Source: Desulfobacterales bacterium
GTDB taxonomy: Bacteria > Desulfobacterota > Desulfobacteria > Desulfobacterales > UBA5852
Length of the DNA stretch: 21,200 nt
Direction of reading: 5' to 3'
Assembly (NCBI GenBank): GCA_030066455.1
Contig: JASJBQ010000015.1
Span: 1 to 21,200 of the forward strand
Each line of letters opens with the position of its first letter. The stretch's first letter is position 1. Positions 2,519-18,387 of the stretch are shown piece by piece. Under the pieces are notes generated by a model that did not search any database, was not told the origin of the DNA, and saw nothing but the letters and a program-made list of their open reading frames with translations. The position numbers and the translations under genes are program-made.

Positions 2519-3003
2519 GGGTCGGCTCCTTCCTGTCGGTTGTTTTAATTTCCGGCGTACCGTATGTTGGCACCATACGGCACACGTGCGTCGGTGTGAC
2601 TTGCCCCGGGCGCGCTGAATTGGCAGCGATAAGGGTTTCTATGCTCAGGGATGGTAACGATGGGCAACGGCCCGCTGTTGGTTACCCTATCCATCGATTT
2701 AGCAAAATTCAATACACAAGTTAATATTTTCAGACCATTAGCTGGCAGGCCACCTATGCGTCCGTGGCGACCGATGTGATCGCCTCCCGTGGGCCGGTCA
2801 ATTTCCACGGCCGGATCCGGGCTGCACAAGGGATGCGCCGCCACGAACCAACCGCGCTTGATGAGTCCCGATCGGCGTTCTAACGTTGATTTTTTTCAAC
2901 CGGGAAAATCTGAATGCCAAACTTCATACATTTGGATCACGGAGGCTGGCCAAGACGGAAGAGGCATTGAGTGTTGGCCCTACAACCCCAAAAGGAGATC
3001 ACA
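2519..3003. other. 485-bp divergent intergenic region, AsmA / patatin
   Basis: No credible gene: the short frames here lack family signatures and ribosome-binding sites. It should hold the promoters of both flanking genes. The only clear structure near the AsmA start is the dyad at 2560-2580. An AT-rich patch (about 2695-2740) and the stretch around 2884-2910 with a GTTGA-T6-TCAAC mini-dyad are candidate promoter zones, but I cannot assign -35/-10 boxes with confidence. Confidence 0.6.
2560..2580. promoter_or_regulatory. Dyad upstream of AsmA gene, possible operator
   Basis: CCGTATG (2560-2566) and CATACGG (2574-2580) are perfect inverted arms around a 7-nt centre, 42-62 bp upstream of the AsmA ATG. 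Such a dyad in a leader or promoter could be an operator or an RNA hairpin. No regulator can be named. Confidence 0.35.
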
Positions 3004-4098
3004 ATGACGGCAAGTGACACCAAGAGAATTGACATCGCCCTTCAGGGCGGGGGCGCCCACGGCGCCTTCACCTGGGGCGTCCTCGATCGGTTGCTCGAGG
3101 AGCGGCGCATCGAAATCGAGGGCATCAGCGGCACGAGCGCCGGGTCCATGAATGCGGTGGCCCTGGCCCAGGGTCTGGCCGACCGCGGACCCCGCATGGC
3201 GCAGGAACTGCTTGCCGGCTTCTGGAAGAAGGTCAGCGAGGCTGCACGCCTGGGCCCCGTCCAACGCTCCTTTTTCGACGTCATGATGGGGCGCTGGAGT
3301 TTGGACCTGTCGCCCAGTTTCATCTTCTTCGAGCATTTTACGCGGACCTTCTCGCCGTATGAGTTCAATCCGTTCGATATCAACCCGCTGCGCGATATTG
3401 TGGCCGAGGTTTTCGACTTCGACGTCATCAACAACGCCCGGTTGCCGACGCTTTTTCTCTCGGCTACCAATGTCCGCACCGGACGTGCCAAGGTGTTTCG
3501 CCAGCCAGAAATATCGGTGGATGCGACCATGGCCTCCGCCTGTCTGCCCTTTTTGTTCCAAGCCGTCGAAATCGACGGCGAGGCCTACTGGGATGGCGGC
3601 TATATGGGCAATCCGCCGATATTTCCCCTGATCGACGAGACCGAGGCCAGCGACATCGTCATCGTTCAGATCAACCCGTTTTCACGATCCGAGATTCCCC
3701 GTACGGCCTACGAAATCAACAACCGCTTAAACGAGATCACCTTCAACGCCAGTCTGAAAAAAGAACTGCGGGCCGCCGCCTTCCTCTCGGAGATCATCCA
3801 CCATGAAAATCTCGACCGGCAGGCCTACCGCGACGGTCGCCTCCATCTTATACAGTCCGAGGAGGAAATGCGGAAGCTAAGCGTCTCCAGCAAACTCAAT
3901 GCCGAGTGGCAATTCCTGCAACATCTCCACGACATCGGCTGGCGCACGGCCGATCAGTGGCTGGCGGCGCACTTTGACGATCTGGGCGTTCGTACCAGCT
4001 GGTTCCCCGAATTTGTCTTCGAAGAGAGCCTCAAGCCGGCCCATTTGCCGGAAGATCGGCAGGCTGTAAAAGATCCAAAGAAGAGGAAACCCAAATGA
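3004..4098 (+). CDS. Patatin-like phospholipase family protein
   Basis: 364 residues from the ATG at 3004, chosen because AAAGGAG lies 6 nt upstream; the frame also opens further upstream without such a site. All patatin hallmarks are present near the N-terminus: the glycine-rich oxyanion loop GGGAHG (15-20), nucleophile Ser45 in GTSAG, and the dyad Asp197 in WDGGY. No signal peptide is seen, so a cytoplasmic or membrane-peripheral acyl hydrolase is likely. The C-terminal region (about 210-340) is helical and ends in a Lys-rich tail. Family members hydrolyse acyl esters of phospholipids or other lipids; the substrate here is unknown. PHA genes lie about 1 kb away, and patatin-like proteins have been reported on PHA granules in some bacteria, but a granule role here is only a guess. 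A degraded ORF overlaps its stop codon. Confidence 0.93.
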   Translation: MTASDTKRIDIALQGGGAHGAFTWGVLDRLLEERRIEIEGISGTSAGSMNAVALAQGLADRGPRMAQELLAGFWKKVSEAARLGPVQRSFFDVMMGRWSLDLSPSFIFFEHFTRTFSPYEFNPFDINPLRDIVAEVFDFDVINNARLPTLFLSATNVRTGRAKVFRQPEISVDATMASACLPFLFQAVEIDGEAYWDGGYMGNPPIFPLIDETEASDIVIVQINPFSRSEIPRTAYEINNRLNEITFNASLKKELRAAAFLSEIIHHENLDRQAYRDGRLHLIQSEEEMRKLSVSSKLNAEWQFLQHLHDIGWRTADQWLAAHFDDLGVRTSWFPEFVFEESLKPAHLPEDRQAVKDPKKRKPK

Positions 4099-4846: not shown

Positions 4847-5027
4847 GTCAATGTCTTTCGGCTTTGCCTCGAATCCATACCACGAATGGCCATCAATCCT
4901 CAGGGGATCAAGCTGTAAGCCCCCACCGCTTCCGATCGGAAAACGCGCTTCGAACGTGTCGGTCGCCATCCGCCGCATGTCGATCGTTCTATCGTTCTGA
5001 GAAATATCCATTCGGATCGAATGCCCA

Positions 5028-5061
5028 AAAAACCCGCACCTCCAATGTCAAGGGGTGCGGT
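5028..5061 (-). terminator. Rho-independent terminator of the PHA operon
   Basis: Read on the minus strand, CCGCACC (5061-5055) pairs with GGTGCGG (5041-5035) around a loop of about 13 nt, and a run of six T residues (5033-5028) follows after one base. This is the classic intrinsic-terminator layout. It lies about 117 nt past the phaJ stop codon and upstream of the histidine phosphatase start, so it most likely ends the long PHA transcript. Confidence 0.8.
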
Positions 5062-5177: not shown

Positions 5178-5597
5178 TCACCCCCGGGGGGGGCTCACCA
5201 GGGCCTCGCCGGTGAGGACTTCGGTGCCGTCCTGGTTGGTGCACACCGTCTTGAGGCGGACCCTTTTCTTTTCCGTCAGGATCTCCACGACTTCGGCCGT
5301 GGCGGTAATCGTGTCACCGATACGCACCGGCGCCAGAAAGTTGAGGGTTTGGGAGATGTAGATCGTTCCCGGGCCGGGCAACTGGCAGCCGATCACGGTG
5401 GAGATGAAGCTTGCGGATAGGATGCCGTGGGCGATGCGGGTTTTAAAGGCCGTTTGTTCCGCGTAGGCCTGGTTGATGTGAGCCGGGTTGAAATCGCCGC
5501 TGACGCCAGCGAACAGGTAGACGTCGGATTCAGCGACGGTTTTGCTGAAACTGTCCTCCTGGCCGATTTCCAGTTGATCGATGGTGTATCCAGGCAT
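5178..5597 (-). CDS. phaJ: (R)-specific enoyl-CoA hydratase (MaoC family)
   Basis: 139 residues, the usual length of single-hotdog PhaJ proteins. The hydratase 2 motif is intact: SGDFNPAHIN supplies the catalytic pair Asp35 and His40, followed by RIAHGILSASFISTVIG. PhaJ hydrates trans-2-enoyl-CoA to (R)-3-hydroxyacyl-CoA, the PHA synthase substrate, and so diverts beta-oxidation intermediates such as crotonyl-CoA into PHA. AGGGGAGGA precedes the ATG by 4 nt. As the last gene of the PHA operon with no phaA or phaB here, it is probably a main monomer route; the reverse, feeding depolymerised monomer to beta-oxidation, is also possible. The related MaoC enzymes of other pathways cannot be fully excluded, but location favours PhaJ. 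Confidence 0.88.
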   Translation of the reverse strand: MPGYTIDQLEIGQEDSFSKTVAESDVYLFAGVSGDFNPAHINQAYAEQTAFKTRIAHGILSASFISTVIGCQLPGPGTIYISQTLNFLAPVRIGDTITATAEVVEILTEKKRVRLKTVCTNQDGTEVLTGEALVSPPRG

Positions 5598-5642
5598 GAT
5601 TCCTCCCCTTAGCGAACCGGCAAGCGTTTGAATATTGCGGGT

Positions 5643-5668
5643 AGGCCGCGTATGGGCTTATGCGGCCT
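5643..5668 (-). other. Intercistronic hairpin between GAF gene and phaJ
   Basis: AGGCCGC (5643-5649) and GCGGCCT (5662-5668) form a perfect 7-bp stem with a 12-nt loop in the 114-bp gap between the GAF-protein gene and phaJ. No T-tract follows, so it is more likely an mRNA processing or stability structure, or a weak attenuator, than a full terminator. Confidence 0.5.
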
Positions 5669-5711
5669 GGCGATGAACGATCCCGTCTTGTGCGGTGTTG
5701 GGGCGATGTCC

Positions 5712-6758
5712 TCAGAACCAGCTGCGGTGGCTCCAGACATCGGCTTCCAGCTCCTTCTGTTCGGCCTGCAGTTTGAGAAACATGGAGGCGTTCTGGATGG
5801 CCAGCCCGCCCTGATGGGCCAGGGCCTGGACCAGAACGACCATATCTTCCTCGTATTTGCGTTTCACGGGGCTGTAGAGTCTGAGGGTGCCGATAACCTC
5901 GTCCCGGGCCGTGATGGGCGTGATGATCATCGAGGCGATGCCTTCAGCCGCCACCTCGTCCTTGTAACGGACCCGCTTGTCGCTGGCGGCGTCTTCGATG
6001 ATCACCGTTTCACCCTTTAGCGCGGCCGTCGAAATATCGGTGCCGGTATGGCGTCCCACGTCGCGAAATTCATCGCTGAGCCCGTGGTAGGCCACCAGCT
6101 TCAAGCTGCCGGAGTCCTCGTCCAGAAGGCGGATGGCCGCGCCTTTCAGACCCAGGCTTTCGCATATCTTGACCGTCAGGATATTGAGCACCTCCTTGAT
6201 GTCGCGGGTCGAGTTGATGGCCGAGGCCAGATCCAGAAACATGAGGGCATTTTTTTGGATGCGCTCCAGCAGGCGGGTTTTCTCGATGGCGACGCCGCCC
6301 TGGTCGGCCAGGGCGTCCAGAAATTCGATCTCCTCGGCGGAAAACTTGCGGCGTTTGGCGGTATAGAGTGACAGCACGCCAATGGGCTGATCCTTGACGC
6401 GCACCGGCACGCTCAGGATACTGGCGATGCCTTCCTTGACTTTGGCCTCATGATTCTCAAGGCGCGGATCCTTGGTGGCGTCCTCGAAGGCCAGGTGGCC
6501 CGCCTCGAGCAGGGGCTTCAAGAGCTTCTGGGCCTTGAGGGGGTTGGCGTGCAGATAGCTTTCCGACAGACCGTGTTGGGCCTTGGGGACGATAAGATCT
6601 TTGCTTTCATCGGCCAGAAACAGGCAGGCCGCCTTGCCGTTCAGGGCATCCGTGGCGCTTTGCACCACGAGGTCGAGGAGCTCCTCCTGAGTGGCCGCGG
6701 TGCCGAACGCCTGGCTGATTTTGCAGAAGGTTCTAAAAAAGTCGCTGTTTTTGGTCAT
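5712..6758 (-). CDS. Tandem GAF-domain sensor protein
   Basis: 348 residues with two GAF domains, about 25-160 and 185-322. Both show the family pattern, for example EGIASILSVPVRVKDQPIGVLSLY in the first and EGIASMIITPITARDEVIGTLRLY in the second, each followed by a helix containing (A/D)xQGG(V/L)AI. A connecting helix (about 155-190) resembles a signalling helix. No HD-GYP, GGDEF, kinase or DNA-binding output domain follows; the protein ends about 25 residues after the second GAF. GAF domains bind small molecules (cyclic nucleotides, haem, amino acids) or mediate dimers; the ligand here is unknown. AAGGAG lies 5 nt before the ATG. It sits between phaC and phaJ in an apparently single transcript, so a regulatory or scaffolding role in PHA metabolism is plausible but unproven. 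Confidence 0.9.
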   Translation of the reverse strand: MTKNSDFFRTFCKISQAFGTAATQEELLDLVVQSATDALNGKAACLFLADESKDLIVPKAQHGLSESYLHANPLKAQKLLKPLLEAGHLAFEDATKDPRLENHEAKVKEGIASILSVPVRVKDQPIGVLSLYTAKRRKFSAEEIEFLDALADQGGVAIEKTRLLERIQKNALMFLDLASAINSTRDIKEVLNILTVKICESLGLKGAAIRLLDEDSGSLKLVAYHGLSDEFRDVGRHTGTDISTAALKGETVIIEDAASDKRVRYKDEVAAEGIASMIITPITARDEVIGTLRLYSPVKRKYEEDMVVLVQALAHQGGLAIQNASMFLKLQAEQKELEADVWSHRSWF

Positions 6759-6818
6759 GGTGTCTCCTTACTTCGGATAAAAGGCTGGATTCGTGGATCA
6801 ACGCCGTGCGCCGGACGG

Positions 6819-7988
6819 TCAGGCCGGTGATGGCTGCTTGGCGGCCGCGGTTTTTTTGGCCGCCCGTTTCGGGGCCCGTTTTCGGGCCGGGCTCGGGGCC
6901 CGCTTGCGCTGGGCGTCGCGCTCTGCCAGCCAGGCCGCGATCTTGGGGGCGAAATCACGCTGGCATTTGCTGCTGACATAAATGCCGATGTGCCCGGTGC
7001 GCAGGCAGATGTCCTCCGTATCCTTGCTGCCGACGGCAGCTGTCAGCCGTTCGCAGGCCTCCGGGGGCACGAGGTGATCGAATAAACCGTATATATTGAG
7101 CAGCGGCATGGTGACCTTTTTCAAATTGACCGGCTTGCCGCCCACTTTCATCTTGCCCTGAATAAGCAGGTTCCGCTGATAGCAGTCGCGGATGAACTTG
7201 GTAAAGACGGCTCCGGGCAGATCCGGGCTGTCGAAGATCCACTTTTCCATGCGGATAAAGTTTTCTACGAATTTTTTATTGTCCATGTTCTGGATGAAGC
7301 CGACGTACTTGTCGAGCATCAAACGGGCCGGGTTGAGCAGCAGAAAACCGAGGTTCATCGCATGGGCCGGCAGGTTGCCGTAGACACTCACCAGTGCATC
7401 CGGATCGACGAACTGCATCCATTGATGCAGAAGGCCCTTGTCCGTGTCGAAATTGGTGGGTGTCACGGTGGTGACGAGATTCTTGACCTTGTCAGGGTGC
7501 TGCGAGCTGTAGATGACACAGAAGGTGCCCCCCATACAGATGCCCATCAAATGGATTTTGGGCAAATTGTGACGATCCCGGATGAAATCGACCACATTGT
7601 CCATATAGCCGTTGATGTGGTCGTCAAATCCCAGAAAGGCGTCTTTGCGGGTGGGGTAGCCCCAATCGATCATGTAGACCTCCAGGCCGTGGTCCAGGAA
7701 GGTCTGAACGACACTGCGGCCGGGCTGGAGATCCAGCATGGTCTCCCGGTTGATGAGGGCATAGACGACGAGCAAGGGGGTCTTGTATTTGGGCTGGCCC
7801 TCGGGACGATAGTATTTCAGCTTGACGCGGTCTTCCTGATAGACAACTTCGTAAGGAGTGGGGGCGATTTCGGTATCCAAATCATCCAGCAGGACCTCGG
7901 AGCCTTTGCGGGCCCTGGCGTGGGCTTGCTCAGAGGCTTCCGCCATCTTGGACATGATCAGATCGACGGGAATATTTTGTTTGGTCAT
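6819..7988 (-). CDS. phaC: Class III PHA synthase catalytic subunit PhaC
   Basis: 389 residues. PhaC polymerises (R)-3-hydroxyacyl-CoA into PHA on the granule surface as a complex with PhaE. The alpha/beta-hydrolase fold carries a lipase-like box with a Cys nucleophile (GICMGG, Cys151), the acid Asp304 in YGLFDHLVPPEA and the base His333 in RTGHIGIYVSS, matching the Cys149/Asp302/His331 triad of Allochromatium vinosum PhaC. That enzyme is about 355 residues; the extra length here is a C-terminal tail from about residue 360, rich in Lys, Arg, Ala and Pro (11 basic and no acidic residues in the last 29), resembling histone H1-like and PhaF tails. GGGAAG precedes the ATG. PhaE is encoded 48 bp upstream on the same strand. 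Confidence 0.96.
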   Translation of the reverse strand: MTKQNIPVDLIMSKMAEASEQAHARARKGSEVLLDDLDTEIAPTPYEVVYQEDRVKLKYYRPEGQPKYKTPLLVVYALINRETMLDLQPGRSVVQTFLDHGLEVYMIDWGYPTRKDAFLGFDDHINGYMDNVVDFIRDRHNLPKIHLMGICMGGTFCVIYSSQHPDKVKNLVTTVTPTNFDTDKGLLHQWMQFVDPDALVSVYGNLPAHAMNLGFLLLNPARLMLDKYVGFIQNMDNKKFVENFIRMEKWIFDSPDLPGAVFTKFIRDCYQRNLLIQGKMKVGGKPVNLKKVTMPLLNIYGLFDHLVPPEACERLTAAVGSKDTEDICLRTGHIGIYVSSKCQRDFAPKIAAWLAERDAQRKRAPSPARKRAPKRAAKKTAAAKQPSPA

Positions 7989-8036
7989 GGCGATCTTCCC
8001 TTCTCTGGCAACAATGTTAGGGCCTTAGCGCAATGG

Positions 8037-8942
8037 TCATTCCGGGTTTTTCTCCAAGGCACGCAGGCGCCGCTTGAGGCGGTGGATTTCCTGGTAGAGG
8101 GAGTCGATTTCGGACCGGGTCGGAATCGGCAAGCCGTCAAGCATGTCTTCGATGACGGCATTGCGCGCGCTTTTGTATTCGGTAAGGCTGCTGAGGGTCT
8201 TGCCCAGGATATCGGTATATTCAGGTGTCTGAAAGAGCGTCATATAATGGCCCTCCAGCACCTTGATCCACATGTCGTAGTAGGCCCGCCCGTCCTCGGG
8301 CAGCTCCCCCTTGTCCGCCAGCTCGCCCAGCTGTTCCTGCAGCACCACAAATGAACGGCTCACCGGTACCGCCAGGATACGCATAAACTCGTTCAAGGTG
8401 ACCTGAAAACGGTTGAAGGCATCGATGGACTCGCTGATACGTTCCTGATACTCACGGACAAGTCCCAGCTTGGGGATCTTGAGATAGCGTTGAATCTCTT
8501 TTTCGTAGATGCCCGTCCAGGTCTCGAAAAAATTTTCGTCCAAGTGGGCGAAGGTGTCGGCATCGACATAGTCTCCTATGCGATTGGCGCTATCCAGGAT
8601 TTTCTGCTGCATTTCCACAAATCCATGCAGGCTGGTCTGGGCCAGCTGGGCGAGCACCTCGGGCATGGCGCCCATCCCCTTGAAAATGGCGTCCAGCGAG
8701 CCGGGTTCGGATAGGGCGCCGGAAAAGGTCTGCCAGTTCTTCAAGGCCGCCGTGACGGAGTCACGGATGCGTTCCGTCGCGCCCTGGTCGGCTTCGGCGC
8801 CTCGACCGTCATTTTCGGCGGCGGTTGGGTTGCCGTCCGGGACCCAGAGGCGCAGTGCATTGCCCCATATATCGGTCATCGTTGCGGTCCACTGGGCAAA
8901 CATGTCTCTCTCGTCCGTGTTCGGGGAGCGCTTCTCGGCCAT
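8037..8942 (-). CDS. phaE: Class III PHA synthase subunit PhaE
   Basis: 301 residues from the ATG at 8942, preferred because AAGGAAGG lies close upstream and residues before it (frame open to 8987) look non-native. PhaE activates PhaC and forms the class III heteromer; it has no catalytic residues. Features include a Trp-containing N-terminal segment (DMFAQWTATMTDIWGNALRLW), a long helical middle with a conserved-looking block IPKLGLVREYQERI (typical of the PhaC-binding region), and a C-terminal basic coiled-coil, IDSLYQEIHRLKRRLRAL, that closes most PhaE proteins. It lies 48 bp before phaC and 93 bp after a coiled-coil protein gene. Length is within the usual range. Identification rests on pattern plus adjacency to a clear class III phaC. 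Confidence 0.9.
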   Translation of the reverse strand: MAEKRSPNTDERDMFAQWTATMTDIWGNALRLWVPDGNPTAAENDGRGAEADQGATERIRDSVTAALKNWQTFSGALSEPGSLDAIFKGMGAMPEVLAQLAQTSLHGFVEMQQKILDSANRIGDYVDADTFAHLDENFFETWTGIYEKEIQRYLKIPKLGLVREYQERISESIDAFNRFQVTLNEFMRILAVPVSRSFVVLQEQLGELADKGELPEDGRAYYDMWIKVLEGHYMTLFQTPEYTDILGKTLSSLTEYKSARNAVIEDMLDGLPIPTRSEIDSLYQEIHRLKRRLRALEKNPE

Positions 8943-9035
8943 ATCACACCTTCCTTGCTGTGCGGTCTTTTCGGTGGCGCCGGTCAATTCTTGAGGGGGC
9001 CAGGGGGGGTGGCGGTCTTGAGACCGCGTGCACCT

Positions 9036-9521
9036 TTATTTGCGCTCGGCCTCGTCCGATTTCTCCGGGGATGCCTGCAGCGCCTGCATCAGATCGTCAA
9101 AGGCCTTGCCCTGATCGGTGACCAGGTTCTGAAACCGGGTGATCAGGCTCATGTGCCCCAAATCCTTGTCGTCGAGGATGGCTTCCAGTTGCTGGATCAA
9201 GCGCGTCTGGTCGGCTATCTGTACCTCCAGGCGTTCCTTCTCGCGTTTGAGCTGATCGTAGCGCTCCAGCGGCACCCAGCCCCAAAGGGGCGCGTAGGCT
9301 TTGAAGGCCTTGTGGAAATCCGCCGTGGCTTTCTGCCAGGCGTTGGTGCTTTCGGGAGACGCGAAGGCCTGCAGTCCGTAGCACTTGCGAAAAAGATCGG
9401 CCATTTCGCCGGAAGGCGAGAACCCACCGTGGATCCATCGGGTCAGCTCTTCGAGCTTGCGCTGCCCGTCGGCCGCCTGCAGGAGAAATTCTCCCCAAAA
9501 TTTAAAAAATTGGTGATCCAT
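9036..9521 (-). CDS. Coiled-coil PHA-locus protein, PhaE- or phasin-like
   Basis: 161 residues from the ATG at 9521, chosen for the GGAGGT site 9 nt upstream; the frame extends to 9551 without a better site. No catalytic motif. The N-terminus is amphipathic and aromatic (MDHQFFKFWGEFLLQAA). The middle contains YAPLWGWVPLERYDQLKREK, then a heptad-like coiled coil (about 91-118, LERYDQLKREKERLEVQ and onward), and the C-terminus is charged. The aromatic-then-coiled-coil plan recalls PhaE and granule-associated phasins, and the gene lies directly before phaE. A role as an accessory synthase subunit or granule protein is inferred from context. I do not recognise a named family. Confidence 0.8.
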   Translation of the reverse strand: MDHQFFKFWGEFLLQAADGQRKLEELTRWIHGGFSPSGEMADLFRKCYGLQAFASPESTNAWQKATADFHKAFKAYAPLWGWVPLERYDQLKREKERLEVQIADQTRLIQQLEAILDDKDLGHMSLITRFQNLVTDQGKAFDDLMQALQASPEKSDEAERK

Positions 9522-9672
9522 GCTTGCAGACCTCCAGCCAAGCGAATGCATGCCATCCGCCCCGGGCTAACTTGATCCGCGTTGAGGCCCTCCGAGCGGC
9601 GGGCCCTTTATCACCGGCATGCTACCGGCCCCACGTTGAACGGCCGCGGGTGGCAGGGGGTGACGGTTGACG

Positions 9673-11211
9673 TTATTTGGCCGCGTTTTCCTGGTCGCCC
9701 TCTAGATCGAGGTGAAATCGCACCGGCCCGCGGTGTTGCCCTTCGCCGAAGCGGGTGTGCAGGGCACAGGCCGAAGACGGGTGGGACCAGGAAGTGGCGA
9801 TGGCCACATGACCCTTGGGAAACGGGGTCACCTCGGCCGGAACGAAATCCAAAGGCGCCAGAGCGGTTTCCTTTTCGACCAGATCGTCATGGATGCCGTA
9901 GCAGATCAACCAGGGCAGCCCTTTCGCCTTGAGCCGCTTGAGGTTGAGTTTCTGGCCAAACATCCGAATCGGCAGCGTGCCGTCAGCGGCGATGGGCGTA
10001 GTGTAAGAGGCAAAGCTCATCTCGGTGATGGCCAGCGGCAGATCATTGCGTTCATGGGCCAGCCAGTAATTCAGACCGGCCGCGGTTTTGCTGATGCTGC
10101 CGGCATCACCGCCGGTGCGGGCCAGCATGGCCAAATCCCGGAAGTAGGCCGACAGCGGCGCTTCGGTTTCGATACTCTTGAGTTTATAAACCCATCCCAT
10201 CAGTTGGCCGTCGGCCACCCGGTTGCCGTTGGGCAGGGTCTTGGTGCCGTAGGCCAAATCATTGAACCGCGCGGGCAATTGCTGCAAAAAACCGGAGAGA
10301 CCGCGGCTGCGGGTGCCGTCCATCGGCGAGACACAGGTGATGAAGGCGTCAACCAGGTCATCGAGCTCTCCGCTGAGCAGGCCGCACAAGGCATTGAAGC
10401 CGCCCTGGCAATAACCGTTGAGGGTGACCGCTTGGGCATGCCGCTGCCGAATGGCCTTGCAAAAGCGTCGTGTGTCGCGGACATCGTCTTCGGCGCTCAT
10501 GGTCTGCAGCGGTTCGCATACGGCAATGTCCTTCAGTATTCGAATATAGGTCGGAATTCCCTGGTTGGCAAAGCAGTGGGCGTAGCTGCGGTCTTCTCCC
10601 GGCAGAAATCCCAGGATGTTCGCCCCCAGGACGTAGGGCGGTATGATCAGGATCGGCTTGCGCCCGGGCTGGGTTTCGACTCCCGCTTTGGAGGGCGCAA
10701 TGCGGTAGAGTTGAAAGCGATCGGATTCATCGACCAGTTCATGCGTCCCGCGCTCGAAGTGAAATCCGAAATCATCGGCAATTCCTTCGATGGCCCGGGG
10801 GTAGCCGTGAGCGACCAGCGCCAGCAGGGCGCCCTGCTGGTGGACGATGTCCCGGAGCGGGCGCGTATTGCCGGTGGTCAAGGCCGACGCGAGAGCGGCC
10901 GCAGCGTCGGCAAATGTCGACTGCGCGTAGCGGCCGGCGGCCTCGAACGCGCCGTCCATACTGCGCCGCAGCAGGTCGAGATTGAACAGGCCCAGATCCG
11001 CGTAGGCTTTAAGTACCTCGTGAAGACCGGCGGCGCTGGCTTTGCGCACCTCGGCCTGCGTAAAGTAGTGGGTCGACAGCAGGAAGGGGATGATAAAGCT
11101 GTTCTGATAGCTGGCCATGCCGCTGGCGGCGTCGAAAGCTGCGCTGACGATATCCGTTCCGGTTTGCAGGCAGTTTTTGTCGGACGGTGGATGGGCACTT
11201 CTAGCGGTCAT
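9673..11211 (-). CDS. Divergent PHA synthase-family alpha/beta hydrolase
   Basis: 512 residues, with GGGAGGAG before the ATG. The C-terminal two-thirds has a PhaC-type fold: VTLNGYCQGG with Cys268 as nucleophile, YGIHDDLV with Asp442 aligned to the synthase aspartate, and FPKGHVAIA with His468. ILIIPPYVLGANILGFLPGEDRSYAHCFANQGIPTY corresponds to the strand region that in class I/II synthases reads PPWINKFYILDL. The first 160 or so residues are helical and Ala-rich, somewhat phasin-like, and unlike the short N-terminus of class III PhaC. It may be a second synthase, a synthase-like transacylase, or a thiolytic/hydrolytic depolymerase of the granule. Retention of Cys at the nucleophile favours acyl-transfer chemistry. 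It lies upstream of phaE and phaC in the same operon. Family is secure; the exact reaction is open. Confidence 0.85.
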   Translation of the reverse strand: MTARSAHPPSDKNCLQTGTDIVSAAFDAASGMASYQNSFIIPFLLSTHYFTQAEVRKASAAGLHEVLKAYADLGLFNLDLLRRSMDGAFEAAGRYAQSTFADAAAALASALTTGNTRPLRDIVHQQGALLALVAHGYPRAIEGIADDFGFHFERGTHELVDESDRFQLYRIAPSKAGVETQPGRKPILIIPPYVLGANILGFLPGEDRSYAHCFANQGIPTYIRILKDIAVCEPLQTMSAEDDVRDTRRFCKAIRQRHAQAVTLNGYCQGGFNALCGLLSGELDDLVDAFITCVSPMDGTRSRGLSGFLQQLPARFNDLAYGTKTLPNGNRVADGQLMGWVYKLKSIETEAPLSAYFRDLAMLARTGGDAGSISKTAAGLNYWLAHERNDLPLAITEMSFASYTTPIAADGTLPIRMFGQKLNLKRLKAKGLPWLICYGIHDDLVEKETALAPLDFVPAEVTPFPKGHVAIATSWSHPSSACALHTRFGEGQHRGPVRFHLDLEGDQENAAK

Positions 11212-11259
11212 GGTCTCCTCCCCCGGGGACGTTCATGTTGGACAATGCAACCGCAATAT

Positions 11260-11288
11260 CAGGGCGCGGAAATGCGATCCGCGCCCTG
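11260..11288 (-). other. Strong intercistronic hairpin after second phasin gene
   Basis: An 11-bp perfect stem (CAGGGCGCGGA at 11260-11270 with TCCGCGCCCTG at 11278-11288) and 7-nt loop lies in the 115-bp gap between the second phasin-like gene and the PhaC-like gene. The minus-strand transcript has no U-run after it. This fits an mRNA 3'-protecting or partially terminating element that would raise phasin mRNA over downstream synthase mRNA. Confidence 0.65.
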
Positions 11289-11326
11289 GAAGCGGGCCGA
11301 CGTGGACAACTTCGAAGGGCGGAGGG

Positions 11327-11593
11327 CTATTCGCTGTCGGTAAAGTAGGTCTCCACCTTTTCGTAGTTCGCGTCCACCATCTGTTTGAAATCCTGGCAAC
11401 CCTGCTTGTAAGAGTTCATCCAATCCTGCAGGGCTTTCTTGCCCTCGTCCGGCAGCCATCCGGCCTGTCCCAAAAAGGCGTCGAGCATTTTTTCATTCTG
11501 CTCGTAGACCAGGCTCATGGCCTTGAAGCTGTTGTCGAAAGCCGACTTGTTGAACTGCACCATCTGTTTGGCGATCTGTTTGTGATCCATCAT
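11327..11593 (-). CDS. Small phasin-like protein (second copy)
   Basis: 88 residues, all predicted helical, without cysteine-box, signal peptide or membrane segment. The start is one of two adjacent ATGs (11593 or 11590); GGAGG lies 9 nt before the first. The protein contains QAGWLPDE and, about 20 residues later, KQMVDANYEKV, both shared in the same spacing with the gene 59 bp upstream (QAGMMPEE and ETMVNAQFDMI), so the two are paralogues. Small amphipathic helical proteins at the head of PHA operons are typically phasins, which coat the granule surface and control granule size and number. That function is inferred from size, composition, position and proximity to phaR. Confidence 0.8.
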   Translation of the reverse strand: MMDHKQIAKQMVQFNKSAFDNSFKAMSLVYEQNEKMLDAFLGQAGWLPDEGKKALQDWMNSYKQGCQDFKQMVDANYEKVETYFTDSE

Positions 11594-11632
11594 CCTTACA
11601 ATCCTCCTTGCATGGGGTATACGTTATGGTTT

Positions 11633-11650
11633 CCGGACCACCGGGTCCGG
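11633..11650 (-). other. Intercistronic hairpin after first phasin gene
   Basis: CCGGACC (11633-11639) and GGTCCGG (11644-11650) form a perfect 7-bp stem with a 4-nt loop, beginning two bases past the stop of the first phasin-like gene. No T-tract follows on the minus strand. Its placement hugging the stop codon fits an mRNA-stabilising or translation-insulating stem. Confidence 0.6.
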
Positions 11651-11652
11651 GG

Positions 11653-11931
11653 TTACGATCGGGTTCGGGCGGGGTTCAGGACCCCGGCGATCATGTCGAA
11701 CTGGGCGTTCACCATGGTTTCGAGTGTCTGGCGGCCCGTCTGCCAGAGCGCTGAGCCATACTCCCAGGAACGCTGGATTTCCTCGGGCATCATACCGGCC
11801 TGCTCGAGACAGGTGCGGGCCACGCGACCGCCCTGTGCCAGCCACATGTCCTGGGTTTTAAGGTTGGTCTGAACGAGTGTCTTCTGAAGTTTCAGTATCT
11901 GTTTCGTCATTGCAAAATCAGCGGGTGTCAT
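11653..11931 (-). CDS. Small phasin-like protein (first gene of PHA operon)
   Basis: 92 residues from the ATG at 11931, which has AGGAGGAA about 9 nt upstream; the internal ATG at 11910 lacks one. The protein is helical and amphipathic, with QAGMMPEE and TMVNAQFDMIAGVLNPA, and aligns without gaps from QAG onward with the neighbouring 88-residue protein, showing an ancient tandem duplication. As first gene after a strong promoter, and opposite phaR, it occupies the usual phaP position; PhaR in other bacteria represses phasin genes and is released when granules form. A granule-coating role is therefore likely, though no named phasin domain can be asserted by eye. Confidence 0.8.
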   Translation of the reverse strand: MTPADFAMTKQILKLQKTLVQTNLKTQDMWLAQGGRVARTCLEQAGMMPEEIQRSWEYGSALWQTGRQTLETMVNAQFDMIAGVLNPARTRS

Positions 11932-11961
11932 GTTCTGAGATTCCTCCTTGCCGTTAGCGGT

Positions 11962-11974
11962 GCAGCCGTTCTGC
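11962..11974. promoter_or_regulatory. GCAG-N5-CTGC dyad at the phasin start site
   Basis: GCAG at 11962-11965 and CTGC at 11971-11974 are inverted arms lying just downstream of the predicted transcription start of the PHA operon. PhaR proteins are known to bind TGC-rich sequences, so this is a candidate operator that would block early transcription. Confidence 0.4.
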
Positions 11975-11984
11975 GATGAACCCT

Positions 11985-12012
11985 ACTATAGTGCCGGGAT
12001 GGCAGGCGTCAA
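11985..12012 (-). promoter_or_regulatory. Sigma70-type promoter of the PHA operon
   Basis: On the minus strand TTGACG (12012-12007) and TATAGT (11990-11985) are separated by 16 bp, five of six matches to consensus in each box. Transcription would start near 11978, about 46 nt before the first phasin ATG. A TTGCAATGCA palindrome lies just upstream of the -35 box, and a GCAG-N5-CTGC dyad just downstream of the start. Confidence 0.75.
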
Positions 12013-12023
12013 GTAAAAAAATG

Positions 12024-12033
12024 TTGCAATGCA
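12024..12033. promoter_or_regulatory. TGCA-A-TGCA palindrome, putative PhaR box
   Basis: TGCA at 12025-12028 and 12030-12033, around a single A, make a palindromic TGC-rich site centred about 50 bp upstream of the predicted PHA-operon start. Known PhaR proteins bind TGC-rich motifs near phaP and phaR. Similar boxes at 12080-12087 and 12130-12140 share the same divergent region. Confidence 0.5.
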
Positions 12034-12063
12034 CAAAAATCTTGGTGGGGTTGCGAAAAACTG

Positions 12064-12092
12064 TTTTCAAATACTTAAAAATGCATTATATT
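12064..12092 (+). promoter_or_regulatory. Candidate phaR promoter with embedded AATGCATT
   Basis: TTTTCA (12064-12069) and TATATT (12087-12092) are spaced 17 bp, a moderate sigma70 match pointing toward phaR. The palindrome AATGCATT (12080-12087) sits between the boxes, where a bound repressor would block RNA polymerase. Confidence 0.45.
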
Positions 12093-12129
12093 TCGCCCAT
12101 ATTTTATTTCACGTCAATTGAAAATTATT

Positions 12130-12140
12130 TTGCGAAGCAA
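12130..12140. promoter_or_regulatory. TTGC-GAA-GCAA palindrome at the phaR start
   Basis: TTGC (12130-12133) and GCAA (12137-12140) flank GAA and end one base before the ATG at 12142. It is a third TGC-type dyad in the phasin-phaR intergenic region and a candidate for PhaR autoregulation. It also occupies the space where the ribosome would bind, if the ATG at 12142 is used. Confidence 0.45.
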
Positions 12141-12141
12141 C

Positions 12142-12633
12142 ATGGATCGGGAGCCGCCGAGGATGGACCCAATGGAAGGACCACGCGTCTATAAGAAATA
12201 TGCCAATCGCCGGATTTACGACACATTCGCCAGCGGCTATGTCACACTGGAGGAACTGGCGGAGGTTGTTCGCCAGGGCGGTGAAGTCAAGGTCATCGAC
12301 GCCAAAACCAAAGAGGACGTGACCGCATTCATCTTAACGCAGATCGTGCTCGAGCAGGCCAAGCGCAAGAATGCCTTGTTGCCTTCACCGGTATTGCATT
12401 TGATTATCCAATACGGCGACAATGTGCTTCTGGAGTTCTTCGAAACCTACCTGCAGCAGATCGCCCGCAATTATATCCGCTACAAGAAAACCGTTGACGA
12501 CCAGTTCAAGCGCTGGCTGGATCTCGGCATGGGCCTTTCCAGGGCTGGCGGCCGCGGTCGCACCTCCGAGATCAACCCCTTTGCGGCCTTCTGGGGCCCG
12601 GGTGCCGATGCCGACAAGCCGAATGATGAATAG
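12142..12633 (+). CDS. phaR: PHA synthesis repressor PhaR
   Basis: 163 residues from the ATG at 12142. The N-terminal PHB/PHA accumulation regulator DNA-binding domain is unmistakable: VYKKYANRRIYDT, SGYVTLEELAEVV, KVIDAKTKEDVTAFILTQIVLEQ (about 16-72). A helical region typical of PHB_acc follows (about 85-130), then a Gly/Arg-rich C-terminus. PhaR binds TGC-rich DNA near phasin genes and PHA itself; nascent granules titrate it and so derepress phasin expression. Start choice is uncertain: 12163 and 12172 are in-frame ATGs with GGGAG or GAGG at better distance, while 12142 has a weak site overlapped by a palindrome. The gene is divergent from the eight-gene PHA operon, which fits its role. 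Confidence 0.95.
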   Translation: MDREPPRMDPMEGPRVYKKYANRRIYDTFASGYVTLEELAEVVRQGGEVKVIDAKTKEDVTAFILTQIVLEQAKRKNALLPSPVLHLIIQYGDNVLLEFFETYLQQIARNYIRYKKTVDDQFKRWLDLGMGLSRAGGRGRTSEINPFAAFWGPGADADKPNDE

Positions 12634-13100: not shown

Positions 13101-13128
13101 CCAAATATCTTGACATCAAGATATTTGG
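13101..13128. promoter_or_regulatory. MarR-family operator and -35 box of marR gene
   Basis: CCAAATATCTTGA (13101-13113) and TCAAGATATTTGG (13116-13128) are perfect 13-bp inverted arms around CA. The core ATCTTGA/TCAAGAT recurs at 13591-13606 before the dioxygenase gene. A perfect TTGACA (13110-13115) lies inside, so regulator binding would cover the promoter. The site resembles the TATCT(C/T)GA-type dyads bound by MhqR proteins of Firmicutes. Confidence 0.85.
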
Positions 13129-13144: not shown

Positions 13145-13573
13145 ATGGAAACCGGCGCCCACATACGCTTGATTCTCTGGAAGGCGGCCAAGGCCGTTGA
13201 AAAGGTCGACCGCCAAAGCATCGCGCGCACCGGACTGAAACTGACCGATTTTCAGATCCTGGAAGTTCTGCTGCACAAGGGGCCGCTGCCGATCAACACG
13301 ATCGCCGGCAAAGTGCTCCTGACCAGCGGCTCCATGACCGCGGCGGTCAACCGCCTGGAGCGTCGGGGGCTCGTGCGGCGTGTCCAGGACCCCTCGGACG
13401 GACGCTGTTTCCATGTGCACCTCACGGCGGACGGCCGCAGGGTCATTCGCGAAGCATTTGCCCAACACCGCGAGCGCCTGGAGAATCTGGTCCGTGTCCT
13501 CTCGGCGGCCGAGCGCCGCGATATCGTGCGCCTGTTGAAAAAAATCGGCATGCGCGCCGAGCAATCGGCATAA
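13145..13573 (+). CDS. MarR family regulator, MhqR-like
   Basis: 142 residues with a full MarR winged helix: dimer helix (IRLILWKAAKAVEKV), GLKLTDFQILEVLLHKGPLPINTIAGKVLLTSGSMTAAVNRLERRGLVRRV with recognition helix about 60-71, and the wing DPSDGRCFHVHLT. The GLxLT(D/E)FxxLExLxHKGP and LLTSGSxT patterns match MhqR-type regulators, which sense quinones and repress ring-cleavage dioxygenase and reductase genes. One cysteine (Cys88) is in the wing. It lies 52 bp before the VOC dioxygenase gene, and both carry the same operator, so autoregulation is likely. No Shine-Dalgarno precedes the ATG; if the TTGACA at 13110 is the -35 box, the mRNA would be nearly leaderless. Confidence 0.92.
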   Translation: METGAHIRLILWKAAKAVEKVDRQSIARTGLKLTDFQILEVLLHKGPLPINTIAGKVLLTSGSMTAAVNRLERRGLVRRVQDPSDGRCFHVHLTADGRRVIREAFAQHRERLENLVRVLSAAERRDIVRLLKKIGMRAEQSA

Positions 13574-13625: not shown

Positions 13626-14684
13626 ATGGAAACGACCACCGAGAACCTCAAGATCAGCGGGATTCATCACCTGACGGCGATTGCCGCATCGGCGGCGGAA
13701 AACCTGGTCTTCTACGAAACCGTTCTGGGTCTGCGGCTGGTCAAGCAGACCGTCAATTTCGACGACCCCTCGACCTATCATCTTTACTACGGCGACGCGG
13801 AGGGCGCCCCGGGAACGATCATTACCTTTTTTCCCTGGGAAAACCTTCCGCGCGGCCGGGCGGGGGCCGGCATGGCGACGGCGATCGCATTGGCCATCCC
13901 CGGCGAATCGATGCCGTTCTGGCAGGAACGGCTGCGGCGTCACGGCGTGGCCTTCGCGGAGGCGGCCCCGTTCGGTTCACCCTTGCTGCGTTTTGACGAC
14001 CCGCACGGTCTGACACTGGAACTGGTGGCCGTCCAAACACCGCCGACGGTGCGGGCCTGGCCCGCGAGCGCCATCCCGGCCAGACATGCCATTCGGGGTT
14101 TCCATACGGCCACGCTCCTGAGCCGCGACCCGGATGCCACCCAGGCGTTGCTGACCCAGGTCATGGGCATGACACGGGTGGGGAAAGACAGTGATCGCCA
14201 TCGGTTCCGCATGCAGGCCGAAGATGCGCCCGGTCATTTCGTCGATCTCGTGGAAGACCCATCTGCGCGGCGCGGCCAACAAGGCGGCGGCACCGTCCAT
14301 CACATCGCCTTTCGCGTCGCCGATGCGCAGGCGCAGGCGGCCTGGCGCCGGGTGCTCGATCAGCAAGGGTTTCAACCCACCACGGTGCGCGACCGCAACT
14401 ACTTCCAATCCATCTATTTCCGGGAGCCCGGCGGCGTGCTCTTCGAATTTGCCACCGATCCGCCGGGCTTCGCGGTGGATGAAGCACCGGACGAACTGGG
14501 CGCCCAACTGCAGCTGCCGCCCCAGTACGCCGCCATGCGCAGCAAGATTGCGAGGCAATTGCCGCCGCTGCGGCCGCCGGACCTCGCGCACGTCTTAAAA
14601 CTGCCCGCGGACGGTCGGGATGACGGCGGCACCCGATTGAACCGCCGGGTGTTCGGTAGGCGCGGCGCGGACCGCATCCATTAG
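13626..14684 (+). CDS. VOC family ring-cleaving dioxygenase, MhqO-like
   Basis: 352 residues built of two vicinal-oxygen-chelate halves. The first starts ISGIHHLTAIA (His14 or His15) and includes FYETVLGLRLVKQTVNFDDP and YHLYYGD; the second starts IRGFHTATLLSRDPD and contains GTVHHIAF (His225/226) and GVLFEFATDPPGF (Glu274). These positions match the metal ligands and the typical E-x-ATDPPGF ending of MhqO/MhqA-type proteins, annotated as Fe-dependent hydroquinone or catechol ring-cleavage enzymes. GGGAGG lies 7 nt before the ATG. The shared palindromic operator ties it to the MarR gene upstream, suggesting quinone or electrophile detoxification. About 35 residues after LPPLRPP look non-conserved. 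The exact substrate is unknown, and oxygen use may conflict with an anaerobic lifestyle if the host is one. Confidence 0.9.
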   Translation: METTTENLKISGIHHLTAIAASAAENLVFYETVLGLRLVKQTVNFDDPSTYHLYYGDAEGAPGTIITFFPWENLPRGRAGAGMATAIALAIPGESMPFWQERLRRHGVAFAEAAPFGSPLLRFDDPHGLTLELVAVQTPPTVRAWPASAIPARHAIRGFHTATLLSRDPDATQALLTQVMGMTRVGKDSDRHRFRMQAEDAPGHFVDLVEDPSARRGQQGGGTVHHIAFRVADAQAQAAWRRVLDQQGFQPTTVRDRNYFQSIYFREPGGVLFEFATDPPGFAVDEAPDELGAQLQLPPQYAAMRSKIARQLPPLRPPDLAHVLKLPADGRDDGGTRLNRRVFGRRGADRIH

Positions 14685-14829: not shown

Positions 14830-16209
14830 TCAGTTGGCCGCGCCGGAATCCTTAGCCCGGCGGCCGCTGCCCCGGGCCAGATCCGGTTTCAGCGTCTTGA
14901 TATGTTGTTGCAGCCGTTCGATATAGTCGTCGGGAAACGACCAGATTGGCAATTCGGGCATACGCCTGAGGCCGCGGCGTTCAGCGCCCAGATCGAAGGC
15001 CAGAAGGGCGAGCAGGTCCGAGCTGACCCAGGGGCTTTGGGAAAAATAACTGTGCCCGTTGCCCGTCGTCGAACCGGCGGCCCGGGTCACGTCGACGAGT
15101 TCCAGTGTCGGGTGGTGGCGCAGAAAATCGTGCGTTTTCGGGGGCACATCCTTCTCGAGCATCTGACCGAGGCGTTGGTGGCGAAAAATGCGCCGCGCCC
15201 ATATCAGGGCCCGGTCGGCCGAGGAAACGTAGACCGTGACCCGCTCCGGTATCCGCAGCAGCCCGTCCGCCACCGCGGCGGCAAAGCCCTTGCGGCTGAC
15301 ATCCCCGCCGACAATGATCACGTTGCCGATTTTTACCCGGCGGCGGATTTCGGCGTCGCTCTTGTCGGCATTCATCAGGGCCAGCTGTTCGAGGGCGCCC
15401 ACCACCAGCCGCGAGCCGGCACTGAAGCCGATGACGTGGATTTTCTCCACCTGGGTTTCTTCCGCCAGATAGGTCAGAAACAGCCGCAGCTTGCGCGCCA
15501 TGTGAATCGCGGTTTCCACGTCCGCGGCGTAGGCCAGAAAGTGCGGCGTCGAAGGCCAGGTGTAGGCCACGAAGGCCCCCCGGTAGCCCAGGAAATGCCA
15601 CAGCTCGGCAGCCACCATGACGGGAACGTCGAACACGACCCGGTAGCCGTGCACATAGACAAAGACTTCCCGGTGGCCGGAGCCGCCCATACGCTGGTCG
15701 ACAAGCGCGCCAAACACCTGGCCATTGCCATCCGGCAGCGATTCGTCATCGGGTGATGGCGCGATAAAGGTATCGGTCTGCACCAGGGTGTCGGTCTCCT
15801 TTACGGCCAGGACCTGCAGCGGGAAATCCCGCTCGCGGTTTTTGGCCAGGGTGATGCGACGCACATCTTCCCACTGGATGCCCGGGTCGCCGGCACTGAC
15901 CCGGGCATGCCCCAAGCGGACGACGAAACCGGCCTGGTTGTAGTAGAACGGGCGGGTTTCCGGGTTGTCAGACCGCTTGCGGTCCGTCGCATAAAGCATT
16001 CGGAAGTTGTCGTAGGATACGGGCGGCTTGCCGGCGGGCAACGGGTTGATTTCACCGTCGGCGAACACCGCCGGGGCGGGCATCAGGTTGATTTTGTGGG
16101 GCGAGCGGCTGCAGGCCGTGAAGGTGGCGCCCAGCAACAAGATGCCCACAAGGACCAAGCCGGGCCGCGGCCGGCGCCGTATACGGATAAAATCGCTTGT
16201 TCTGATCAT
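14830..16209 (-). CDS. DUF900-type alpha/beta hydrolase lipoprotein
   Basis: 459 residues from the ATG at 16209, where a basic stretch (RIRRRPRP) and hydrophobic helix lead to the lipobox FTAC, making Cys33 the probable lipidated residue. The frame opens at 16257, but the extra 16 residues are implausible. The hydrolase domain shows a VYVHGY oxyanion region (187-189), nucleophile Ser263 in GFSAGS, Asp303 as a candidate acid and His386 (GNGHSYF) as base. MLYATDRKR and VTVYVSSADRAL are typical of DUF900/COG4782 esterase-like proteins, whose substrates are unknown. The plus-strand gene at 17191 is a paralogue sharing the YVSSxDRAL and LVDVT blocks. The Shine-Dalgarno is weak. Confidence 0.87.
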   Translation of the reverse strand: MIRTSDFIRIRRRPRPGLVLVGILLLGATFTACSRSPHKINLMPAPAVFADGEINPLPAGKPPVSYDNFRMLYATDRKRSDNPETRPFYYNQAGFVVRLGHARVSAGDPGIQWEDVRRITLAKNRERDFPLQVLAVKETDTLVQTDTFIAPSPDDESLPDGNGQVFGALVDQRMGGSGHREVFVYVHGYRVVFDVPVMVAAELWHFLGYRGAFVAYTWPSTPHFLAYAADVETAIHMARKLRLFLTYLAEETQVEKIHVIGFSAGSRLVVGALEQLALMNADKSDAEIRRRVKIGNVIIVGGDVSRKGFAAAVADGLLRIPERVTVYVSSADRALIWARRIFRHQRLGQMLEKDVPPKTHDFLRHHPTLELVDVTRAAGSTTGNGHSYFSQSPWVSSDLLALLAFDLGAERRGLRRMPELPIWSFPDDYIERLQQHIKTLKPDLARGSGRRAKDSGAAN

Positions 16210-16300
16210 GGCGCAGGACGATTCTCTTGAAAAATTATAATTTTGATTAAAGTTCAAAGATATTAACGACCTTTTTGGTTTGCAGGTGTAATCATCATAT

Positions 16301-17162: not shown

Positions 17163-17190
17163 GTGATTGCCACCATCTGCGAGGGATGCG

Positions 17191-18387
17191 ATGACGCGCT
17201 TCAAACGCCGACTGCTGATCGGTCTGGCGCTGGTTGCCGTGCTGATGTCCGCTGCGGGCGTCTGGTTCTATAATTTCTACTTCCGATCCACGGGCGCCAT
17301 CACGCGGCATATGGAAAACTTCCGCTTCCGGCGGATGACCGTGGCCCAGCTGGCCGAACAATCGAACTACCGGTTTTTCTTCATCACCAATCGCAAGGTG
17401 ACTTCAAGCCAGGGGCCGCTCGAAAGCCAATTCGGGGCGGAACGCGAGGCGGCCCTCAAGTTCGGCTATTTCGATACGCGGATCCGGCCCTCGCTGGGGC
17501 TGGGCATGCTCATCGATCCGACCGAGTGGTTCCAGAACGAGGAAATCCAGCTCCAGACCGTGGCCCCGCTGGAGCGGGACCAATTCATCGAAGACGTCCG
17601 CCAGGTCGTTGACGACTCCCCCTACCGCTCGCTGCTGGTCGTGGTGCACGGCTTCCGCGAGCGCTTTCCCTCGGCGCTACGCAAGACCGCTTTTCTGGGC
17701 CACGTGCTCGATATCAACACACCGGTGATGGTATTCGACTGGCCCGGCAACCAGGGCAGTTCACTGGGCGGCTACCGTCGAGCGCGCCAGGTGGCCGAGG
17801 CTTCCGGGGAAGATCTGGCCCGCACCCTGGAGCTGATCATCGCTGACATCCGGCCCGAGCGGCTGTGGCTGCTGGCCAACAGTATGGGCGGCCAGGTCGT
17901 GGTGGACGCCTTTGGTCTTCTGTACCGGAACCAGGATCTGGCCGATGCCGAGACCGAGATCGAAGACGTGGTGCTGACCGCACCGGACGTGGACCACGCC
18001 AAATTCAACGCCCAGTTCAAGCAGGAAATCAAAAGCCTGGCCCGGGATCTTACCGTGTATGTTTCGTCCAACGATCGGGCCCTGCTGGTCAGCCGCCTCA
18101 TCAACCGGGGCAAACGAGGGGGGGAGAGCACGCTGAGTCCGGACATGCTGGCCGAGGCCGAGCGCATGGCGGACCTGATCGAGCCCGACAGCGATCAGCT
18201 CGCCCTGGTGGATGTCACCCCGGTGAACCGCACCCGTAATTTTCACAACTTCAGCCTGGAGACCCCCGAATTTTTCGACGACTTGTATTTGCGGCTGACC
18301 AACGACAAGAACCCACAGACGCGGCTGATCTATCAGGTGCAGAGCCCGGAGGGCAAAGTCTATTGGGTGCTGACACGCGGCCGTTAG
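17191..18387 (+). CDS. Membrane-anchored DUF900-type alpha/beta hydrolase
   Basis: 398 residues from the ATG at 17191, which has GAGGG close upstream. A basic start (MTRFKRR) and hydrophobic segment (8-30) without a lipobox suggest an uncleaved inner-membrane anchor with a periplasmic hydrolase domain. RFFFITNRK (the DUF900 opening), VVHGF (151-155), nucleophile Ser231 in LLANSMGGQ, Asp266 in APDVD and His352 in NFHNFS form the expected catalytic set. The nucleophile elbow is ANSMG rather than strict GxSxG. LTVYVSSNDRAL and LALVDVT are shared with the lipoprotein paralogue at 14830-16209. Substrate unknown. It is followed 13 bp later by another hydrolase gene, almost certainly in one operon. 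Confidence 0.88.
   Translation: MTRFKRRLLIGLALVAVLMSAAGVWFYNFYFRSTGAITRHMENFRFRRMTVAQLAEQSNYRFFFITNRKVTSSQGPLESQFGAEREAALKFGYFDTRIRPSLGLGMLIDPTEWFQNEEIQLQTVAPLERDQFIEDVRQVVDDSPYRSLLVVVHGFRERFPSALRKTAFLGHVLDINTPVMVFDWPGNQGSSLGGYRRARQVAEASGEDLARTLELIIADIRPERLWLLANSMGGQVVVDAFGLLYRNQDLADAETEIEDVVLTAPDVDHAKFNAQFKQEIKSLARDLTVYVSSNDRALLVSRLINRGKRGGESTLSPDMLAEAERMADLIEPDSDQLALVDVTPVNRTRNFHNFSLETPEFFDDLYLRLTNDKNPQTRLIYQVQSPEGKVYWVLTRGR

Follow-up and report, generated by a model that had tools for sequence, protein, structure and literature searches.

We describe here a polyhydroxyalkanoate (PHA) storage-granule locus in a 21,200 nucleotide (nt) stretch of DNA from a Desulfobacterales bacterium (hereafter the window, to which all coordinates and strands refer). 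Judged by sequence comparison, this locus is widely shared among the relatives of sulfate reducers, and its blocks, which are often separate in other genomes, are aligned here in tandem. Eight genes on the minus strand, phaP1-phaP2-C2-CC-phaE-phaC-GAF-phaJ, lie opposite a divergent phaR on the plus strand, where C2 denotes a second Cys-type enzyme with the PhaC fold, CC a coiled-coil protein and GAF a tandem-GAF protein. A check against the list of open reading frames (ORFs) found all nine genes at the positions given in a preliminary description of the window. The same description had called the operon unusually elaborate, a view which has to be dropped, since the extra members commonly occur together in related bacteria and the array does not behave as one fixed block. 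We consider it probable that a Desulfobacterota-type bacterium carries here a locus for PHA granules, with two modules placed behind one promoter and with regulation and a role of C2 as modelled below. The openly licensed literature searched says little about how sulfate reducers and their relatives turn over PHA, and no description of the gene set as a whole was found there for sulfate reducers; the locus offers an enzyme family with a conserved triad and a GAF protein associated with class III PhaC.

Gene order and separation of the two modules

The comparison of gene order across related genomes, which had been proposed together with the preliminary description, was made with an alignment of C2, used to scan 84,980 species genomes. 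The scan gave 133 relatives, and the 80 best were taken further; it relied on two peptide motifs and is biased to C2 genes retaining them. Names of the Desulfo- or delta-type were carried by 77 of the 80 loci, the other three (L065, L068, and L070) being named only Proteobacteria. Loci L006 and L034 belong to Desulfosarcina alkanivorans and Desulfonema magnum, cultured relatives whose genomes are complete. Neighbours were counted in the 80 loci plus the window, for genes with enough flanking sequence. Class III phaC was directly preceded by phaE in 50/50 cases, GAF followed directly 3' of class III phaC in 41/47, and phaJ came next after GAF in 24/47. On the other side of the array C2 was preceded by phaP in 61/76 cases and followed by CC in 38/76, the upstream neighbour of CC was C2 in 39/46, and 56 of the 60 phaR genes had a divergent phaP as 5' neighbour. 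These adjacencies make each extra member a regular neighbour, and because the order is kept in related loci the arrangement is not due to chance.

The position of the nearest phaE relative to C2 varied. Sixteen stretches (including the window) have it downstream of C2 and co-directional, 14 downstream and opposite, 16 upstream and opposite, and four upstream and co-directional; no phaE is present in 31 stretches, some of which end at contig ends. The synthase module is thus inverted or on the other side of C2 in 34 of the 50 phaE-bearing stretches and the PhaR-type site described below goes with the coat module, which is why the array cannot be considered a fixed unit. The full gene order of the window was found again in L001, L003, L015, L019, and L044, and in L054 with an additional phaP between C2 and CC. 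When seven loci were compared, the window proteins PhaP2, C2, CC, and PhaR were nearest to those of L001 (97, 92, 86, and 87%), whereas PhaE, PhaC, GAF, and PhaJ were nearest to those of L054 (82, 93, 83, and 86%, against 67, 88, 79, and 81% for L001); the window locus therefore looks like a mosaic, its modules having separate histories. Ten class III loci came from genomes lacking C2; GAF adjoined phaC in seven of these (L098-L104) but was not beside it in L095-L097. Varying phaE placements, differing nearest relatives and the persistence of GAF beside phaC in loci without C2 lead us to conclude from these comparisons that phaE-phaC-GAF(-phaJ), the synthase module, and phaR-phaP-C2-CC, the coat module, are two modules moving separately. 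Six pairs of C2 loci came from the same assembly (L001/L002, L005/L017, L028/L047, L034/L046, L065/L070, and L077/L078), and several of the second copies are accompanied by few pha genes or by none.

A PhaR-type operator at a fixed distance from the promoter

A 12-mer consensus, TGCRNYGCASMA, has been deduced for PhaR of Bradyrhizobium (PMC6201568). A full match is present between phaR and phaP1 in the window, with its core TGCANTGCA beginning 21 nt ahead of the TTGAC of the promoter. The core occurs a single time in the 21,200 bases, and at least once in 29 of 100 shuffles. Across the related loci, the 12-mer was present in 45 of 55 phaR-phaP stretches; 50 dinucleotide shuffles gave 0.18 on average and 1 at most. 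The spacing is equally regular: in 42 of the 44 core-bearing stretches TTGAC begins 17-21 nt past the core towards phaP, 34 of these at 19 or 20 nt, against a mean of 1.1 and a largest value of 5 in 500 random shifts of the TTGAC positions. The 12-mer was found within 300 nt upstream of phaR in 43/60 cases and of phaP in 55/141, with far fewer upstream of C2 (2/79), CC (2/46), phaE (0/52), phaC-labelled genes (1/74), GAF (0/48), and phaJ (0/37). Where phaE lies downstream of C2 and opposite to it, the 12-mer was absent from all of the upstream stretches (15/15).

By these counts a PhaR-type operator is conserved in the coat module, where its distance to the -35 box is fixed, and is missing from the synthase module. 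Most simply, PhaR would control the coat module, and in the co-directional layout of the window read-through could place the synthase module under PhaR as well. The fixed geometry of the operator would mark PhaR-controlled genes. A PhaR-controlled mobilising enzyme has a precedent, since two phaZ depolymerases are among the PhaR-repressed genes of Bradyrhizobium (PMC6201568).

C2, a conserved family with the PhaC fold

C2 consists of an N-terminal helical domain (residues 12-143, with predicted helices at 11-56, 62-112, and 116-142) and a catalytic domain at about 150-505, in which C268, D442, and H468 form a predicted triad. The catalytic residues are invariant in 81/81 aligned rows, at identities to the window protein down to about 50%, and Cys-Asp-His together with the GxCxGG box is also invariant in 80/80 rows of a second alignment; it should be noted that the kept loci were found through motifs including GYCQG. 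Nine of nine C2 genes found by profile alone nevertheless retain G[YF]CQGG. A structure model from 81 rows (predicted local distance difference test score, pLDDT, 90.7) replaced an earlier one from 29 rows (pLDDT 68.7); in both PhaC is the top structural match and the fold is that of PhaC. The matches listed (the best 50 rows) all cover the catalytic domain and not the N-terminal helices, and in a viral structure library generic alpha/beta hydrolases were matched. The N-terminal domain was also considered as a phasin or PhaE domain, and no profile match to the N-termini of PhaE, phasins or class I PhaC was obtained. The nucleophile motif of C2 is GYCQGG and the family has conserved motifs of its own such as SPMDGTRS. 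Like the catalytic domain of PhaC (5xav, 5t6o, and 9knj), C2 thus has a Cys-Asp-His arrangement within the same fold, and unlike PhaC it is below the PhaC cut-offs and has its own N-terminal domain and motifs. Taken together, C2 appears as a conserved PhaC-fold family under apparent PhaR control. No match to C2 was found on plasmids. Public records P0033, P0055, P0056, and P0105 call C2 homologues "metal transporter", apparently a misannotation.

Synthase, depolymerase or scaffold

One possible explanation, held tentatively, is that C2 is a second, self-contained PHA synthase whose N-terminal helices replace PhaE, with another choice of monomer or with a role in starting chains for PhaEC. Several results speak against it. 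C2 scores 29.8 bits with TIGR01836 against a curated cut-off of 365.3, has no PF07167 match in the Pfam scan and is below every PhaC cut-off; in profile comparisons with class III PhaC it gives E 1.9e-13, a more remote relationship than that of class I PhaC (E 1.6e-40); its N-terminal domain lacks the profile matches mentioned above; and it is grouped with the phasins under the PhaR site, apart from the synthase genes. Distribution bears on the same point. Among 158 genomes sampled from the phylum of Desulfosarcina alkanivorans, C2 was present in nine (E <= 1e-20), PhaC in 19 (TIGR01836, E <= 1e-20; 14 over the cut-off), a PF07167 match in 16, and PhaZ over the cut-off in two; PhaC was present in five of the nine C2 genomes against 14 of the 149 others (Fisher p 0.0014, kinship ignored). 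Of 16 C2 genomes examined separately, among them the four left without PhaC in the 158-genome sample, 12 have a class III PhaC over the cut-off; the other four of the 16, whose completeness is not stated, have a 118 amino acid frame with a 71.5-bit match (G011) or none (G039, G086, and G154). C2 is therefore probably not the sole synthase, and its reading as a stand-alone replacement of PhaC was set aside.

A second alternative gives C2 and CC a role in granule scaffolding or segregation, with the triad a relic or that of a minor esterase. The long helical N-terminal domain of C2 and its place between the phasins and a coiled-coil protein would suit such a function, but the invariance of the catalytic residues is hard to fit with a relic, and we regard this explanation as unlikely.

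We favour instead an enzyme which, from sequence and predicted fold, probably acts on the polymer at the granule surface by way of a Cys-Asp-His acyl-enzyme, and we lean somewhat towards mobilisation (by depolymerase action or thiolytic release) over a second activity in synthesis. Like the intracellular depolymerase PhaZ (TIGR01849), C2 is a PhaC-related Cys enzyme for which a granule role is plausible; unlike PhaZ, it gave no match to TIGR01849 (matches listed to E 0.1) and does not have the CQP motif of the PhaZ genes in L090 and L091. More doubtful, though conceivable, is the full proposal that C2 is a new class of Cys-dependent PHA enzyme, with a PhaC-fold catalytic domain and N-terminal helices of its own, brought to the granule surface through PhaR control and acting as the hitherto unrecognised intracellular depolymerase of PHA-storing Desulfobacterota, together with a tandem-GAF protein as a synthase-switching sensor. 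As a depolymerase C2 would supply a step so far missing from the account of carbon mobilisation from stores in these anaerobes, and as a synthase it would add one more synthase class.

A number of observations count against the picture we prefer. Two phaP-bearing loci, L099 and L100, are without C2, and the 12-mer operator is missing from 10 of the 55 phaR-phaP stretches. C2 is nearer to PhaC than to PhaZ by profile (E 0.33 with a PhaZ profile made from two sequences only) and apparently by fold, and its box is GYCQGG and not the CQP of PhaZ. Other depolymerase candidates exist in C2 genomes: NF050089 and 3HBOH were each over the cut-off in one of 11 C2 genomes, both in G002, and in L014, a C2 locus, phaR has a PhaZ-like gene next to it (TIGR01849 103 bits, below the cut-off). 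The distribution of canonical PhaZ (TIGR01849) points both ways: it was over the cut-off in 0/14 C2 genomes and also in 0/10 class III genomes without C2. Its absence from C2 genomes makes the depolymerase reading attractive and the equal absence where there is no C2 makes it weak; the simpler notion of C2 as a substitute for PhaZ is weakened by the same ten genomes.

Other PhaC-like proteins occur around phaR. A third group with a GLCQGGW box lies beside or near phaR (L092:17991-19091, L093:13630-14736, L039, and L069) and scores between PhaC III (131.7 bits) and PhaZ (73.9 bits), under both cut-offs. Long PhaC-like proteins (729-866 amino acids) near phaR in L006, L012, L031, L032, L040, L057, L060, L061, L063, L064, L072, and L076 have the box GNCQGGW wherever it is readable; we take them to be probably of the DUF3141 type, to judge from the DUF3141 match of the window PhaC.

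Gene identities and transcription of the window locus

The features of the locus are collected in Table 1. PhaC passes TIGR01836 (414.1 bits against a curated cut-off of 365.3) and PhaE, whose gene adjoins phaC, passes PF09712 (116.7 bits, cut-off 25.7) and remains under the NCBIfam cut-off of TIGR01834 (101.1 bits, cut-off 154.95); by these matches the two are a class III PHA synthase (PhaEC) with predicted polymerising activity. PhaR similarly passes PF07879, the DNA-binding domain of the PHB/PHA accumulation regulator (87.6 bits, cut-off 25), and is under the cut-off of TIGR01848 (88.9 bits, cut-off 109.45), while PhaJ has a MaoC-type hydratase domain (PF01575, 82.6 bits, cut-off 27). The preliminary description had named class III PhaEC with coiled-coil, GAF, PhaJ, a second Cys-type protein of the PHA synthase family, and an opposite PhaR, and had suggested a larger granule complex supplied from beta-oxidation; the family matches agree with the gene identities, and such a supply fits the presence of PhaJ with no thiolase or reductase (phaA/phaB) found among the window ORFs scanned. 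Its two phasin-like paralogues fared less evenly. PhaP1 and PhaP2 show a weak mutual relationship (phmmer E 5.7e-4 among 7818 ORFs) and 3/108 homologues of this small-protein family carry the source name phasin, but no phasin model in Pfam or NCBIfam was matched (matches to E 0.1); "phasin-like" here refers to size, gene position, and the names of those three homologues. In the GAF protein the Pfam scan found two GAF domains and no other Pfam domains; it is probably a small-molecule sensor that modulates PhaEC or PhaJ. Among the openly licensed papers listed in a literature search, none was found to link a GAF domain with PhaE. CC was considered as a relative of PhaE, and an hhalign probability of 34% over 60 columns was unconvincing.

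Table 1. Features of the PHA locus in the window.
Feature	Position	Strand	Basis and remarks
Candidate PhaR-type operator TGCAATGCACAA	12025..12036	+	full match to Bradyrhizobium consensus TGCRNYGCASMA (PMC6201568)
phaR, predicted PHA-responsive repressor	12118..12633	+	PF07879; start may be ATG 12142 instead of TTG 12118
Sigma-70-like promoter TTGACG-16-TATAGT of the eight-gene array	12012-11985	-	10/12 consensus positions match
phaP1, small phasin-like protein, 92 aa	11653..11931	-	ORF, homology to phaP2, gene order
phaP2, small phasin-like protein, 88 aa	11327..11593	-	ORF, gene order; 3/108 homologues named phasin by JGI
C2, PhaC-fold Cys enzyme, 512 aa	9673..11211	-	profiles, alignment, predicted structure
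CC, coiled-coil protein, 161 aa with revised start	9036..9521 (ORF 9036-9551)	-	homologue lengths
phaE, class III synthase subunit	8037..8942, revised start (ORF 8037-8987)	-	PF09712; start with AAGGAAGG
phaC, class III synthase catalytic subunit, 389 aa	6819..7988	-	TIGR01836
Tandem-GAF protein, candidate synthase regulator, 348 aa	5712..6758	-	PF13185, two stretches
phaJ, (R)-enoyl-CoA hydratase, MaoC family, 139 aa	5178..5597	-	PF01575; (R)-specificity putative
Intrinsic terminator	5027..5060	-	hairpin 5060-5034 and U run; sequence and fold

The clear promoter and terminator which had been claimed for the array are both present. The 56-nt stretch after phaJ folds at -29.3 kcal/mol (z -4.25); this terminator came from the fold analysis and is absent from the consensus-scan list. 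The claim of short gaps stands in part: the inter-ORF gaps are 59, 115, 121, 48, 48, 60, and 114 nt, so that only some of them are short. The start of CC is probably at 9521 (39/58 homologues have 160-161 amino acids) and that of phaE at 8942, by a stretch resembling a ribosome-binding site, AAGGAAGG; with these starts two gaps become 151 and 93 nt. A purine-rich Shine-Dalgarno-like stretch precedes every gene. No RNA elements or tRNAs were found in the window.

It is quite possible, if not what we favour, that the array comprises more than one transcription unit, its eight genes merely standing in a row. This would be in line with the widest gap, with the separability of the modules in other genomes and the change of nearest relatives across the CC-phaE gap, and with minus-strand promoter-like sites inside C2 at 10571-10543 and 11117-11090. 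On the other hand, the consensus scan gave no promoter-like site inside any gap, and between phaP1 and phaJ no strong terminator is evident, the weak candidates being at chance (11, against a shuffle mean of 11.4); the strong one comes only after phaJ.

A model of the locus

In the model we propose, in which expression and catalysis are what we infer from sequence comparison, PhaJ would convert enoyl-CoA from beta-oxidation to (R)-3-hydroxyacyl-CoA, which PhaEC would polymerise. Free PhaR would occupy the phaP promoter until nascent polymer pulls it from the DNA, and its release would allow phasins, C2, and CC to be made once granules form, with more synthase to follow in the arrangement of the window. 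The tandem-GAF protein would sense a small molecule and tune PhaEC or PhaJ, and C2 would attack the polymer on the granule surface through its Cys-Asp-His acyl-enzyme.

Class III PHA synthase loci with phaE-phaC are known from Allochromatium and Desulfococcus multivorans; Hai et al. 2004, cited in PMC2939530, reportedly treated such loci. As in these loci, phaE of the window stands directly before a class III phaC over the curated cut-off; unlike them, the window has GAF and phaJ after phaC, has phaP, C2, CC, and a divergent phaR attached, and is without phaA or phaB among the ORFs scanned. The PhaR-phasin circuit of Ralstonia and Bradyrhizobium is resembled in that a PhaR-family protein is encoded beside phasin-like genes with a site fitting TGCRNYGCASMA. 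The differences are that the small phasins here look non-homologous, that C2 and CC are in the same unit, and that almost all core-bearing loci have the site some 20 nt ahead of the -35 box.

Surroundings of the locus

A MarR-family gene (13145-13573) is preceded just 5' by a 12-bp perfect inverted repeat (13101-13128), likely a MarR operator, and adjoined by a glyoxalase-type gene (13626-14684). Four more hydrolase genes (14830-16257, 17167-18387, 18401-19861, and 2971-4098) encode two DUF900 alpha/beta hydrolases, another alpha/beta hydrolase, and a patatin-like protein; the patatin-like gene is not conserved in the 80 C2 loci, phmmer having found the window copy and no other. The region is flanked by genes for an AsmA-family protein and a HlyD-type membrane fusion protein (512-2518 and 19997-21169).

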